A stretch of DNA of 64,000 bases from Natrinema versiforme (lineage in GTDB: Archaea; Halobacteriota; Halobacteria; Halobacteriales; Natrialbaceae), in NCBI RefSeq assembly GCF_005576615.1, contig NZ_CP040330.1, forward strand, positions 3,162,001 through 3,226,000, in the 5' to 3' direction. Shown piece after piece: positions 8,829-15,191 of this stretch (the first letter of the stretch is position 1; each line of letters opens with the position of its first letter). A model generated the notes under the pieces. The model was not told the origin of the DNA. It saw only the letters and a list, made by a program, of their open reading frames with translations, and made no database searches. The translations under genes were made by a program, and so were the position numbers.

Positions 8829-10202
8829 TTAGCGCCGCCTCGAGTCGGATCGGGATCCGCCGTCGGTCTGGGCCGACCGCGTCGGGTCTCCGTCCGCTGA
8901 CGGCCCCGCCTCGGTCGGTTCCGCGCCGCCGTCCCCGAGTTCCGTCTCGATCTCGGCCCGGGTTTCGGCGTCCCGCTCGGTCTCGGTCGCGTGATCCTCG
9001 TCGGACCGGCTATCCAGCCACGCCCGGACGAGGTTCACGCCGTCCTGGAAGAACGGCACCGGATCGTCGGTGACCGCGTAATCGAATCGCGGATGGTCGA
9101 CGAGCGACGTGGCCACCTCGCGTACGGCAGTCCCGAGCGACGGCCGGTCGACGAGCGGGTACTCCTCGGTCGCGACGCTGTGTAAGTAGCTGAGTTCGCC
9201 CCGGAGGAGGTGGCCGCCCATCCCGACCTCGTACGTCGGGTCCGTAGCGATCGGCTCGTCCATCGCCAACTGCCAGTAGTAGTACGGGAAGTCCGCGCCC
9301 GCGCGCACCGAAAACGGGAGCGACGACCAGAACCGCGGGTTGATCTCCATCAGTTTGAACTCGCCGTCGCTGGGGTCGCGCAGGAACTCGACCATCGCGA
9401 GCCCGTGCCAGTCGAGTTCGCTGAGCAGGGCGCGGCCGGCGGTCTCGAGTTCGGGAATGTGGACCGATTCCCGGTAGGCGCTGGGGCCGCCGCAGTACTT
9501 CCAGCCCCGGCGCTGGCAGTGCTGGAAGGTCGCGACCGGCGTTCCGCGGTCGTAGAGCGCGAAGAACCCGAACTCCCGCGAGTCGGGGACCCGCTCCTGG
9601 ACGATCGGGACGTGACCGCGCTTCTCGAGGGCCGCCTGCGGATCCGGCCGGGTGTCCGGGCGCTGGTACTCCGTCGAGCCGATCTCGGCGTCGTCGAACC
9701 GCGAGCCGAGGTAGGCGGGCGAGGCCACGGTGTAACGCGGTTTCACGATCGTCTCCCGACTCCAGTCGTCCCACTGATCGAGGAGTTCGGTCTCGGGGGC
9801 ACCGACCCCGGCCGCGTCGGCAGCCGCGAAGAGGTCGACTCGATCTTGAACCCGTCGGAGGGTCTCGAACTCCGGCCACGGCGTCGCGATCTCGTCGGCG
9901 AACTCCTCTTTGCGTTGTGCGAGGACGTAGACGTCTTCCTCGCGGACTGGAATAATCGTCTGCACGTCCGGGCGCTCGGCAAGCGAGAGCAGCGCGTCCC
10001 CGTATTCAGTGAGGTCCGTTTCCGGATCCGGAAGGCGAACGAACTCGTCGCGATAGGCCGAGCTGGCCGCCGGAGTCGACCGTGACTCGGAGCCCACGAT
10101 AGTCCGGACGCCGCGCGGGTTGAGTGAGCGGAGACAGGCAACGGTGCTCGGTGCGTCGATCCCGGGCACGAGCACGCTCGCGTCGTCCCTGTGTCGTTGC
10201 AT
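8829..10202 (-). CDS. ATP-grasp domain carboxylate-amine ligase
   Basis: 457 residues from the chosen start. An N-terminal Rossmann part (VLVPGIDAPSTVACLRSL) is followed by an ATP-grasp domain. A lysine in ETIVKPRY and the metal-binding acidic pair in FKLMEINPRFWSSLPFS are visible. This layout is shared by PylC/biotin-carboxylase-like ligases joining a carboxylate to an amine with ATP. The substrate is unknown. The last 60 residues are a low-complexity acidic tail. The frame reaches ATG 10229, but a TATA-like box lies only 2-11 bases before that codon and 29-38 before 10202, so 10202 is preferred. Confidence 0.85.
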   Translation of the reverse strand: MQRHRDDASVLVPGIDAPSTVACLRSLNPRGVRTIVGSESRSTPAASSAYRDEFVRLPDPETDLTEYGDALLSLAERPDVQTIIPVREEDVYVLAQRKEEFADEIATPWPEFETLRRVQDRVDLFAAADAAGVGAPETELLDQWDDWSRETIVKPRYTVASPAYLGSRFDDAEIGSTEYQRPDTRPDPQAALEKRGHVPIVQERVPDSREFGFFALYDRGTPVATFQHCQRRGWKYCGGPSAYRESVHIPELETAGRALLSELDWHGLAMVEFLRDPSDGEFKLMEINPRFWSSLPFSVRAGADFPYYYWQLAMDEPIATDPTYEVGMGGHLLRGELSYLHSVATEEYPLVDRPSLGTAVREVATSLVDHPRFDYAVTDDPVPFFQDGVNLVRAWLDSRSDEDHATETERDAETRAEIETELGDGGAEPTEAGPSADGDPTRSAQTDGGSRSDSRRR

Positions 10203-10230
10203 GACCGATAGGTGGGGGTCTTGTTGCATT

Positions 10231-10240
10231 GTTATAGATC
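10231..10240 (-). promoter_or_regulatory. TATA-like box deciding the ATP-grasp start
   Basis: On the minus strand the sequence reads GATCTATAAC. It lies about 29-38 bases upstream of ATG 10202 and only a few bases from ATG 10229. This supports the internal start. Confidence 0.5.
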
Positions 10241-10292
10241 GGATAACTGACGGTGTCGAACCGCGTTCCCGTTTCGCCCCGAATACACGGCG

Positions 10293-10727
10293 TTAGGCAT
10301 CGAATACCCGCCGTTCGAGCGCGGTATCCCTGTAGGCCGTACACCGCCGTATCCGTCCGTCTCGCAGGTCGAACACGTGGGCGAACGCGATATCGAAGGA
10401 ATTCTCGCCGACCGTGCCGACGTAGGCTCCCGCTACGATCATCGTGTCACCCGCGTCGATGAACCGCTCCGGGAGCGCCTGGAGGTGATCGGCTCGCCGG
10501 CCCGGAGCCCGCACCGCGTTCTCGAGGACGCTCTCGATCCCCGAACTGGTCCGTTCGCCCCGTTCGCCGGTCGTGGCGTCGACCCACGTGATATCGTCCG
10601 TCAGTAGCGATGCCAGTTCGTCCGTCCCGCCCCGATCCGTGACGACGTGATTGAAGGCAGTGTAGAACTCGGTGAGTCGCTCTCGAGGAGTCGTCTGTTC
10701 GGCCGACCGCTGTTCGTTGACTGTCAT
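10293..10727 (-). CDS. SnoaL/NTF2-like fold protein
   Basis: 144 residues of the cone-shaped NTF2-like fold: an N-terminal helix LTEFYTAFNHVVTDRGG, the ELASLLTDDITWVDATTG strand, and the final AHVFDLRDGRIRRCTAYRDT strand that is a hallmark of SnoaL-like proteins. Members include hydroxylases, isomerases and non-enzymes, so function cannot be assigned. The start at 10727 (MTVNEQ) is preferred over the open frame to 10772. It is downstream of nothing obvious and separate from the ATP-grasp gene. Confidence 0.8.
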   Translation of the reverse strand: MTVNEQRSAEQTTPRERLTEFYTAFNHVVTDRGGTDELASLLTDDITWVDATTGERGERTSSGIESVLENAVRAPGRRADHLQALPERFIDAGDTMIVAGAYVGTVGENSFDIAFAHVFDLRDGRIRRCTAYRDTALERRVFDA

Positions 10728-10939
10728 GTCTGTGCTCGATCGGATCGAAGACGCGTGCGGAGAAAAGAGCACGATTCGATCACACGAAATGAGAACGTCA
10801 CCGGAACTGTCACGACGGAGCGACCGGCCGCGGGAGCGACGCGCTCGGCCGTGTCAGAACGGGTCGCAGAGCCGTCACTACACGAAGGCTCGAGAAACCC
10901 GAAAACTCGGGAAGAGAAATCGCGGTAGACGGAATCGAC

Positions 10940-11821
10940 TTAGAGCAGTCCTGTCTTCTGGAGCTTCATCAGGTCCTCGGTGTCGAGGGTCTCGCCTTCC
11001 TTGAACTTCTGATAGATCTCCTCGGCCTCTTCTTTGGCCTCTTCTTTCTTCTTGTCGCGCTCGGACTTGCGCTCCTCTTCTTCCTTCTTGTCCAGTTCGC
11101 GCAGGCGCTTCTGGACGCGGACGAAGTCCTCGTGGTGGCGGTCGGCGGCCTCCTGGGCCTCGACGAACTTCTCGTGCATCTCGTCGGCTTCGTCACGGAT
11201 GTCGTCGGCCTCCCGATAGGCCTCGATCATCTGGTTGTGGTGTTCCTGGGCCTTGTCCGCGAGCTCCGTGACCTTCTGGTGGTGCTGGGAGGCGTCCGAT
11301 CGGACTTGCTCGGCTTCCTCGACGAGCTCCTCGAGGTCCTCGTTCTGATCGAGTTTCTGCTTGCGCTCCTCGTACTCCTCGCGCTTGTTCTCGATCTTCT
11401 CGATGAGTTCCTTCTCGTCCTCGCTCGAGAGAACCTCGGTCTGCTGTTTGAACTCGAGTTCCTCGATTTCTTCTTCGAGTTCCTCGAGGTCCTTGCCCTC
11501 GTCGAGCTCCATGTCCGATTTGAGCTCCTCGACCTTGTCGAACAGCTCGTTGGCTTCGGCGTTGAGCTCGTTGCGGCTCTCCTTGTGTTCTTGGACCTGC
11601 TCGTTGAGCTCGTCGCGTTTCTCGCGGTGCTCTTGGGCCTCGTCGACTTTCTCGCGGGTCTTCGCGTTGAGATCGTCGCGTTTGGAGGCCCGGTCGGAGG
11701 CCATCTGGTTCAGCTCGTTTCGCCGGTCTCGCAGTTGACCGGCCATCTTGATGAGCTGTCCCTTCGATTTGTTTTCTAAGTCGTCCTCTGTCAGTTCGAT
11801 GTTCTTCGATTCGTCTACCAT
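10940..11821 (-). CDS. Long coiled-coil protein (COG1340-like)
   Basis: 293 residues, nearly all a charged coiled coil of Glu/Lys/Asp/Gln heptads from about residue 20 to 270, ending in a short LDTEDLMKLQKTGLL tail. Archaeal proteins of this type are conserved and often mis-annotated as phosphoserine phosphatase; there is no phosphatase motif here. The tail motif is reminiscent of a small folded cap. The start at 11821 (MVDESKN) fits the family; the frame upstream to 11851 is short. A long leader of up to about 200 bases is possible (see 11822-12132). Confidence 0.82.
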   Translation of the reverse strand: MVDESKNIELTEDDLENKSKGQLIKMAGQLRDRRNELNQMASDRASKRDDLNAKTREKVDEAQEHREKRDELNEQVQEHKESRNELNAEANELFDKVEELKSDMELDEGKDLEELEEEIEELEFKQQTEVLSSEDEKELIEKIENKREEYEERKQKLDQNEDLEELVEEAEQVRSDASQHHQKVTELADKAQEHHNQMIEAYREADDIRDEADEMHEKFVEAQEAADRHHEDFVRVQKRLRELDKKEEEERKSERDKKKEEAKEEAEEIYQKFKEGETLDTEDLMKLQKTGLL

Positions 11822-12132
11822 GTTAGTCAAACCTCTGTGCCATACCCGCACCGGGGAAACAGTCCGACGGTCGCTCGAGTCGGTCGCCGACGGCTCGGCG
11901 ACTGACCCGGGAGAGACCGTTCAACTGTTCGGAGCGACTGCTCACGATCTGCGAAACCTCGGTGAATAAGATTTCCTGTCATCGATCGTCGAGCGATACG
12001 CGCCCCGGTGGCGTTCTGGTGACAGATACTATTGGCCCCTATAATTTAAATGTACCGGTCGCCAGACCCCTGAAACCGGTTAGCAGGGCCCTCGTTCGCC
12101 TGTGTTGGCCACTGTCATGATATGTAGATGGC
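11822..12132. other. 311-base intergenic region with a hairpin and a TATA-like stretch
   Basis: No protein gene is convincing here. It holds an 8-bp inverted repeat GTCGCCGA / TCGGCGAC around a CGGC loop at 11883-11902. It also holds an AT-rich TATA-like stretch TTTAAATTATAG (minus strand, about 12040-12051) that could start a transcript reading into the coiled-coil gene through a 190-base leader. Confidence 0.5.
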
Positions 12133-14055
12133 TTATAAACGATACCGGTTACGAACCGTCTCGTCGCCGACGGCGACCTCGAGGTCGACCCGGTCTGCGT
12201 CCCGCGGAATCCGGGCCGTTCCGGCGGCTGCCGTCTCGAGCGGGCCGACGCCGACCCGTTCCGTCTCCGTCGTCTCGCCGGCCCGCCAGCCGACGACGGC
12301 CTCGAGTTCTTCGTGGGTATCGTTACAGAGCGTAATGCCGACCGTTCCGGGGGCAGCCGGCCCGTCGAGGACGGCCTGAATCGGTTCGTACGACTGCGCG
12401 ATCGCCTCGGCGGCCGGCTTCGGCTCGCCGTCAGCTGTGTGGACGCCCATCCCGCCGCCCGGCGCGCCGTCCCGGAGCGTCGACGCCGCGAAGACGCCAC
12501 AGCCCCGCCGCCGGAGCCCCTCCGCGACCGTCTTCAACGTTCGCGCCTGCTCGCGCTGTGACCCCGCCACGTCGGCGGCCCCTCGCTCGAGCAGCGCCGG
12601 CTCGAGACCCGGAATCGCCGCGGGGTCGGCGTCGTCGTCCGCGAGCGAGCCGGCCCCGAAGCCGCCGACGAGATCGCCGAGCGACGGGTAGGTCTCGAGC
12701 AGCCAGTCGATATCGCCGGCCTCGAGGTACTGCCAGCCAGGAAAGAGCCGGGCGGCGTCCGGGTCGGTCCCCGGGGGACCCGTCACCGGGACGATCGGCA
12801 CCTCGTCGGGGAGCGCCTCGGCGATCGCGGCGGCGGGGTCGCGATCGACCGCGGTCTGCCACGCCCGGTATCTCACAGCGAGTTTGGCGAGCAAGCCGCT
12901 CCCGAGGGGGTCAGCGTACGGGTCCGTCGGGTGGTCCCGAACGCCGTACATCGCAAGGCTGGGGTGGGTTCCGTACTCGCGGGCCAGCTCGGCCGCCAGT
13001 TCCGTTCCCCGGCCGGCCGGAAGATCGGACCCGCTCGCGGGCAGGTCCTGCCAGACGAGGACCCCGGCCTCGTCGCAGGCCTCGTAGAACGATCGCGGCG
13101 GGACGTGTGCACGCGGCCGAAGCAGCGTCGCGTTCGCGTCGACGGCGCGCTGGACGTCCTCGCGCGGGTCGCCGCCGGGCAGGCGCGTAAAGCCGCGTGC
13201 ACGGACCCGTCGACCGTTAACCAAAAGGCCGTCCCCGTCGCGCTCGACGTGACGGAGGCCGACGGTCCGTTCGACGGTGTCGCCGCCGAGTTTCGCGCGG
13301 ACGGTGTACCGGTTCTGCGGGCCGTACTCGCGAGGCCACCACAGCGACGGCTCCCTGATCGGGATCGTCTTCGACACCGTCGTTCGCTCGCCCGCGTCGG
13401 CCTCGACCGGGACGCGCTCCATCGACGCACCGCCGCGGAACCCCTCCGGGCGCAGCGACAGCGTCACCGCGTCGTCGATCGACGCACCGGCGTCGACCTC
13501 GAGGGTCACGTCGATCGCGGCACCCGCGCCGTCGGTGATCGCGTTCGGCGCTGTGGCCGCGGTTGCGTCGGCATCCGTCGCCGACATCGAATCCGTCCCC
13601 AACCTGGGGCGAGCCTCGAACTCCCGGAGGAAGGTTCGCGGCCGCGACTCGACCTCGAGCCCCCACCAGATCCCCGGCGTGCCGAGCCGGTCGGGAACCG
13701 CGTCGGTCCCGTAGACGCCGGCGAAGGTCTCCGGGCGCTCGCAGACGACGAGCAGTTCGTTCTCGGGTTCGGGATCGAACTCGAGACGGGCCGGGACGAA
13801 GTGTGGCTCGTGTGCGGCAAGCCGCGTGCCGTTCATCCAGATCGTCGCGCGGTCGTAGGCGCCGCGAACGTCGAGGAGGGCGCGCTCGGTGGCGTCAGTT
13901 CGGGGGTCCGCGACCGTCGTTCGGTACGCGATCGGTCCCTCGCTGGCGACCGCCGCCGGCCGGCCGGGGACCGAAACCGGTCGCCACTCCGCGACGGTCG
14001 GGGGGTCGTCACCACCGCGGTCCGTGACGACCCCGGCACTCCACTCGTCGGTCAT
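12133..14055 (-). CDS. Glycoside hydrolase family 2-fold protein lacking both catalytic glutamates (predicted pseudoenzyme)
   Basis: 640 residues with GH2 architecture. The sugar-binding jelly roll (about 20-140) contains LDVRGAYDRATIWMNGTRLA. The immunoglobulin-like domain (180-270) ends in SLWWPREYGPQNRY. The TIM barrel (280-560) has FYEACDEAGVLVWQDLP. In active GH2 enzymes HPS(I/L).....NE carries the acid/base; here it reads HPSLAMYGVRDHP (Asp374 in place of Glu). The nucleophile in SEFG reads VGGFG (Gly465 in place of Glu). A sugar-binding or structural role is more likely than hydrolysis. There is no signal peptide. It stands as a single gene. Confidence 0.8.
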   Translation of the reverse strand: MTDEWSAGVVTDRGGDDPPTVAEWRPVSVPGRPAAVASEGPIAYRTTVADPRTDATERALLDVRGAYDRATIWMNGTRLAAHEPHFVPARLEFDPEPENELLVVCERPETFAGVYGTDAVPDRLGTPGIWWGLEVESRPRTFLREFEARPRLGTDSMSATDADATAATAPNAITDGAGAAIDVTLEVDAGASIDDAVTLSLRPEGFRGGASMERVPVEADAGERTTVSKTIPIREPSLWWPREYGPQNRYTVRAKLGGDTVERTVGLRHVERDGDGLLVNGRRVRARGFTRLPGGDPREDVQRAVDANATLLRPRAHVPPRSFYEACDEAGVLVWQDLPASGSDLPAGRGTELAAELAREYGTHPSLAMYGVRDHPTDPYADPLGSGLLAKLAVRYRAWQTAVDRDPAAAIAEALPDEVPIVPVTGPPGTDPDAARLFPGWQYLEAGDIDWLLETYPSLGDLVGGFGAGSLADDDADPAAIPGLEPALLERGAADVAGSQREQARTLKTVAEGLRRRGCGVFAASTLRDGAPGGGMGVHTADGEPKPAAEAIAQSYEPIQAVLDGPAAPGTVGITLCNDTHEELEAVVGWRAGETTETERVGVGPLETAAAGTARIPRDADRVDLEVAVGDETVRNRYRL

Positions 14056-14108: not shown

Positions 14109-15191
14109 CTAAAAGAGGTTCTCGAGCCGGTCATCGGCGAACTGGTCGGCGTGGTCGGTCGATTCCGTCTCCTGTTCCTGCTTGGCCTCCCGGGCGCGGT
14201 CCATGAACCGCTGGATGCGATCCGAGCGCTCCGCGCCGCCGAGCAGGACCAGCGCACCGAGGCGGTCGCTATCGAGCGGGAAGTCGCCGCCGCGGACCTG
14301 CATGCTGCCGGTTTCGTCCTCGAGCCAGTGGCGGGCCTTCTCGACGCCCTTGCGCGGGATCGCGTCGGGATCGCCGGCGATGACCAGCAGCGCCGAATCG
14401 GCCTCCGTCGCGTCCGGCAGGCTCGTCCCCGTCAGCAGCGCCTGCCGCGAGACGGTCATGGTCGTGGTGATGTTCTCGCTGCTATCCTCGCTCGCGATTT
14501 CGGTGGCATAGCCAAGCGCTGCGACGCCGCCCGCGCGGAGGGTGTTGATGACCTCGCTCGAGTCGACGACACTTTCTCCGACGCCTTCGACGGCCTCGCC
14601 GGAGGCGAAGAGCAGGCCGACCCGCTTCGCGATCTTCTCGTTTATCGTGTCGAACGCGCCCTCGACGCTCTCGCCTTGCTCGTGCCACGAGTCGTTGTCG
14701 ATCAGCAGCGTCGAGTCGGCCTCCCGCAGCAGCGTCTTCAGCGAGCGGCCGGCGTTGGCCTGATAGAGCGCCCCTTCGTTGCGGCCCGGCAACACGCCGA
14801 GCGCGTAGACGGGCACGTCGTAGATCTGTTTGAGGTGATGGACGAGCACGGGCGCGCCGCCGCTGCCGGTGCCGCCGCCGAGGCCGGCGACCACGAAGAT
14901 CGCCTCGGATTTCGAACTCACGCGGCCGTCCAGCGAGTTCAGGACCTGCTGGATGTCCGACTGCATCACTTCCGTGCCGAGTTCGTTGTCGGCACCGACG
15001 CCGTGGCCGTTGACGCGGTCGGCGCCGATCAGTTGCGTGTCGACGAACTGGAGGGACTGGAGGTCGGCTTCAGCGGAGTTGACGGCCAGCGCACCTTGGA
15101 CGGCTCCGAAGCCCATGTCCGCGTCGAACCGGGCGAGCCGTTCGGTGACGTTTCCGCCGGCCTGACCGACTCCGATCAGGGATACTTTCAT
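14109..15191 (-). CDS. cetZ: CetZ, archaeal tubulin-like GTPase
   Basis: 360 residues of the tubulin/FtsZ superfamily. The N-terminal MKVSLIGVGQAGGNVTERL is the first nucleotide-binding loop. The tubulin signature GGGTGSGG lies at residues 105-112, and the synergy-loop region NITTTMTVSRQALLTGTSL is present. The long acidic C-terminus ends DDRLENLF. CetZ proteins control cell shape in haloarchaea and differ from FtsZ; sequence is closer to CetZ. The start at 15191 is fixed by the family N-terminus. It is divergent from the DUF5791 gene. A small inverted repeat CACTC/GAGTG (15194-15209) sits just before the start. Confidence 0.9.
   Translation of the reverse strand: MKVSLIGVGQAGGNVTERLARFDADMGFGAVQGALAVNSAEADLQSLQFVDTQLIGADRVNGHGVGADNELGTEVMQSDIQQVLNSLDGRVSSKSEAIFVVAGLGGGTGSGGAPVLVHHLKQIYDVPVYALGVLPGRNEGALYQANAGRSLKTLLREADSTLLIDNDSWHEQGESVEGAFDTINEKIAKRVGLLFASGEAVEGVGESVVDSSEVINTLRAGGVAALGYATEIASEDSSENITTTMTVSRQALLTGTSLPDATEADSALLVIAGDPDAIPRKGVEKARHWLEDETGSMQVRGGDFPLDSDRLGALVLLGGAERSDRIQRFMDRAREAKQEQETESTDHADQFADDRLENLF

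Follow-up and report, generated by a model that had tools for sequence, protein, structure and literature searches.

The gene at 12133-14055 of the window, a stretch of 64,000 nucleotides from Natrinema versiforme (contig NZ_CP040330.1), encodes what we take, at a probability of roughly two in three, to be a cytosolic GH2-derived pseudo-glycosidase, which belongs to a vertically inherited family restricted to Halobacteria, and whose scaffold is maintained, most likely for a non-catalytic role. The protein is a GH2 member by sequence and by fold, composed of a jelly roll, an Ig-like domain, a TIM barrel and a C-terminal β domain. It has kept the enzyme fold and lost the catalytic residues while the scaffold is under selection, the combination that marks a pseudoenzyme. 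The features are listed in Table 1.

Table 1. Positions in the window of the GH2-derived gene, its domains and catalytic columns, and the flanking genes.
Feature	Position	Strand	Details
CDS, GH2-derived protein	12133..14055	minus	640 aa, predicted cytosolic, pI 4.6
N-terminal jelly-roll (GH2 sugar-binding-type) domain	13561..14055	minus	approx. residues 1-165; boundary estimated from model
Ig-like GH2 domain	13246..13560	minus	approx. residues 166-270; PF00703
TIM-barrel region	12388..13245	minus	approx. residues 271-556; 374-485 modelled with low confidence
Asp374, column of Asn in the GH2 'NE' pair	12934..12936	minus	profile alignments
His375, column of the acid/base Glu	12931..12933	minus	profile alignments
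Gly465, column of the nucleophile Glu	12661..12663	minus	profile alignments
C-terminal beta-sandwich domain	12136..12387	minus	approx. residues 557-640
CetZ tubulin-like gene, upstream, 53-bp gap	14109..15185	minus	PF21011 CetZ_C 2.7e-63
DUF7121 coiled-coil gene, downstream	10940..11851	minus	neighbour in 99/101 distinct loci

The reading frame is real, as it stays in frame across the orthologues and is full-length in many Halobacteria. A PDB sequence search with the window protein returned GH2 enzymes, the best of which were β-glucuronidases and a β-mannosidase, and a profile built from 46 orthologues gave much stronger matches (E 1.4e-29). When the haloarchaeal family was aligned, profile against profile (hhalign), to 13 bacterial relatives, the match covered 537 columns, with a probability of 100 and an E-value of 2.7e-56. 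PF00703 scores 33 bits in the window protein, above the cut-off, and is present in 45 of the 46 members; PF22666 is matched weakly by the window protein, and at E<=0.01 by 30 of the 46. The barrel model PF02836 had no match in the window protein or anywhere in its genome, and was matched at E<=0.01 by no member of the orthologue set A2. The AlphaFold model, with a mean pLDDT of 73, spans whole GH2 enzymes end to end, with VIA-align Z scores of 26 to CapGH2b and about 19-20 to the GH2 exo-β-mannosidases and the exo-chitosanase CsxA. The Pfam domain, the PDB matches, the profile-profile alignment and the fold comparison thus agree on the GH2 assignment made in the original prediction. The complete scaffold of jelly roll, Ig-like domain and barrel that it described is likewise present, as are the motifs WQDLP and HPSLAMY. 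The C-terminal β domain, which it had not mentioned, is retained even by a lineage missing half of the barrel. No second copy of the gene was found in the same genome with the window protein itself as the query.

The best structural matches, the GH2 exo-β-mannosidase/exo-β-D-glucosaminidase group (6byc, 2je8 and 2vzs) together with CapGH2b (9nfe), have the same domain order and fold and share the WQD, HPS and FG motifs with the window protein; 6byc is also the best profile match of the family. However, as compared to this group, the window protein is shorter, and His375 and Gly465 take the places of the acid/base and nucleophile glutamates. Moreover, where related bacterial proteins have the Trp residues of the segment WQLNDCWP..W, the window protein reads LRD...GGGMGV. 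Three bacterial proteins, L008 and L009 from Bacillota MAGs, which are the best-scoring non-archaeal matches, and L011 from an Ignavibacteriaceae MAG, have RVHAHV, WQD and CHNEP...EYGAQ/EFGAQ in common with the haloarchaeal HDDP...EFGAG members, but differ from the window protein in retaining NE and E, and are 21-23% identical to it overall.

The acid/base segment reads VRDHP in the window protein, as compared to HNEP or SNEI, and N, E and E occupy the three columns in every one of the 21 proteins compared, of which 15 are bacterial and six are haloarchaeal GH2 proteins. The register of residues 374, 375 and 465 rests on profile alignment, because the pLDDT of the model is below 50 over most of residues 374-485; it was the same in the profile-profile alignment, in a joint alignment and in a separate one with the six haloarchaeal GH2 controls. 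The acid/base site had been placed at Asp374, which is off by one, as this residue aligns with the Asn of the pair; the replacement of the Glu itself stands, by His375. The nucleophile position coincides with Gly465, as proposed. The loss of both catalytic glutamates, and with it the description of the window protein as a GH2-fold pseudoenzyme, is therefore supported by the profile alignments. Neither of the two residues that define a retaining GH2 glycosidase, an acid/base Glu in an NE motif and a nucleophile Glu, is present. Given that NE and E are kept in every comparison protein, the window protein is not expected, as judged from its sequence, to work as a classical retaining glycosidase. 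A compensating carboxylate may lie elsewhere in the pocket, as the model is poor at residues 374-485, and Asp337, Asp374 and Asp529 remain.

Matches at E 1e-5 were obtained in 157 of the 391 Halobacteria genomes. The family is carried by 134 of these (E at or below about 5e-45, counted from the match table), and the 23 with weak matches only are taken to hold other GH2 proteins. Members were found in six sampled families (f1, f3, f6, f7, f8 and f10), and the heavily sampled family f4 gave weak matches only. Relatives outside the order were limited to one weak match among 295 genomes of the phylum. The 101 distinct Halobacteria orthologues comprise 37 with E or D at the nucleophile column, 55 that have lost it, including the window protein, and nine half-barrel members. 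In the latter (L112-L120), all from one genus of f8, the second half of the barrel is gone, and the nucleophile segment with it, whereas the jelly roll, the Ig domain and the C-terminal domain are retained. Glu occupies column 465 in 34 of the 92 untruncated orthologues, and column 375 holds D, E, Q, R, H and others. On the family tree, at least nine switches between Glu and another state are needed at column 465 among these 92 rows. Glu at both columns is found in 2 of the 92, and the six independent pairs on supported branches are too few for a correlation test. That the substitutions would be conserved across other haloarchaea had been put forward as a check, and this was not borne out: His375 and Gly465 vary among the orthologues, and it is the scaffold that is conserved.

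The 37 members with E or D at column 465 present a different pocket. The acid/base column is Asp in 34 of them, mostly as the motif HDDP, and H315, H317, H373, D374, D375 and E465 (window numbering) are each kept in 32-34 of the 37. The altered pocket is highly conserved in L054, L078, L094 and other Glu465 members. This HDDP...EFGAG pocket may represent a modified active site, or a place where a ligand or metal binds.

To compare constraint, the orthologues were split by the state of column 465, which is itself not independent evidence and was left uncounted. In the E/D465 set, residues 373-375 all lie below the 25th percentile of barrel variability, and H315, H317, H373, D374, D375 and E465 all lie below the 28th. 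In the nucleophile-lost set, on the other hand, residues 375, 373 and 374 are at the 92nd, 75th and 55th percentiles within the barrel, respectively, while R313, W335, W441, Q503 and D529 do not exceed the 10th. Over the whole gene, each of the 18 pairs with dS >=0.15 has a dN/dS of about 0.13-0.28. Within the genus of the window, where selection after the nucleophile loss can be gauged, the ratio is 0.22-0.28 (six pairs, dS 0.15-0.51), or 0.15-0.27 for the barrel alone; one further pair, with a dN/dS of 0.37, is too close to weigh (dS 0.04). Thus, in the lineage of the window protein, the catalytic columns are nearly free and the scaffold is held by purifying selection.

These patterns bear on whether the protein could still be catalytically active by a different mechanism, in which Asp374, Asp337, Asp529 or the conserved His317 performs the chemistry. 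Almost every untruncated member has kept Asp337 and Asp529, and the preserved pocket of the HDDP...EFGAG relatives is in line with such an enzyme. However, the weak constraint on residues 373, 374, 375 and 465 in the window lineage is unexpected for a working site, and position 374 is D in only 37 of the 55 members of the nucleophile-lost set. We therefore consider an altered mechanism unlikely. A non-catalytic role is the most likely, because purifying selection still maintains the scaffold; the protein would keep its fold and act in the cytosol by binding or scaffolding.

Surface glycan sensing, the role suggested by the original prediction, is not supported. Although the jelly roll resembles the sugar-binding-type domain of GH2, no export signal was seen, and neither the window protein nor its orthologues have a hydrophobic N-terminal segment: a strongly hydrophobic N-terminus occurs in no member of the orthologue set, and 99% of the members share Trp5. 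The window protein has no membrane-like stretch, and its most hydrophobic 15 residues average 1.1 on the Kyte-Doolittle scale. The protein is therefore predicted to be cytosolic, and a surface sensor or lectin is highly improbable.

The steps leading to the pseudo-glycosidase can be ordered provisionally. In the ancestor of the family, the acid/base motif NE would most likely have become DD, with the nucleophile Glu kept. In the lineage of the window protein, the nucleophile would have been lost next, leaving both catalytic columns free to vary. The active site would thus have been altered early, and constraint then lost in several lineages. The order of the two active-site changes is provisional because the root of the tree, where long branches meet, is unsure. 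A more speculative and rather doubtful extension is that the re-built pocket of the sister HDDP...EFGAG branch performs non-GH2 chemistry, or binds a ligand new to GH2, and that in the line of descent to the window protein this pocket was dismantled, while the rest of the protein kept a second, non-catalytic role.

Precedents exist for both pseudoenzymes and dead glycosidases (PMC10211241, PMC6549527). The GH28 pseudoenzymes of beetles (PMC6549527) likewise keep the hydrolase fold without the catalytic function; however, they belong to another family and another domain of life and accumulate as multiple genes, whereas in the window genome a search with the protein itself gave no second copy, and PF02836 had no match. 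Cytoplasmic GH2 β-mannosidases have been described (PMC10963439), as have GH2 proteins in glycosaminoglycan loci (PMC13260240). In the literature searched, we found no description of inactive haloarchaeal GH2 proteins or of this family. The genomes of the class hold the intermediates, from an altered acid/base with the nucleophile kept, through the loss of the nucleophile and of half of the barrel, to the deletion of the gene, and this graded series from enzyme to pseudoenzyme makes the steps experimentally comparable. The series and the conserved HDDP...EFGAG pocket of the sister set are the parts of most interest. In addition, an automatic label of β-galactosidase or β-glucuronidase would be wrong here and would inflate the counts of haloarchaeal sugar-degrading enzymes.

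Where present, the gene occupies a fixed locus, yet it is missing in 10 of the 21 sampled congeners, and CetZ adjoins DUF7121 in all ten. In one of them (genome G164), whose CetZ is 98.5% identical to that of the window, a 3' remnant corresponding to residues 611-640 lies between CetZ and DUF7121 (L145:1092-1183), and is therefore direct evidence of loss by deletion there. Elsewhere, tblastn at E 1e-4 detected no remnant in 20 genomes chosen for absence of the gene; the CetZ-DUF7121 spacing is about 300-490 bases in five of these, and the spacing between the DUF371-like gene and DUF7121 is about 240-640 bases in seven. The best reading is that of a dispensable gene with repeated losses. These losses at an otherwise conserved junction, the remnant in a close relative and the whole families without the gene would also suit a decaying gene that has no present function and is kept by chance for now. 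However, the low dN/dS in all of the pairs weighed, the uninterrupted frames among the matches listed and the conserved scaffold residues make decay quite unlikely.

The neighbouring genes were considered as possible functional partners. All 391 Halobacteria genomes searched carry DUF7121, regardless of whether the GH2-like gene is there, and DUF7121 is therefore a landmark and not a proven partner; other neighbours are conserved as well, so its linkage likely reflects conserved gene order. In 99 of the 101 distinct loci DUF7121 follows downstream in the same orientation as the GH2-like gene; of the other two, one ends at a contig boundary and one lacks it. A functional link with CetZ is weak: the two genes adjoin only in many Natrialbaceae, and CetZ persists where the GH2-like gene is gone. 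A DUF371-like gene and an endonuclease III gene (both identified by eye) and an S49 peptidase gene are also kept in many loci. Since gene order is conserved throughout the neighbourhood, it says little about the function of the GH2-like protein. DUF7121 also occurs in Methanosarcina acetivorans, and its copies are 73-99% identical to that of the window in the loci compared. Between DUF7121 and the S49 peptidase, the window carries ATP-grasp-like and SnoaL-like genes (8829-10772), a pair found in some Natrialbaceae loci and not in others, so the insertion varies between loci although its site is conserved.
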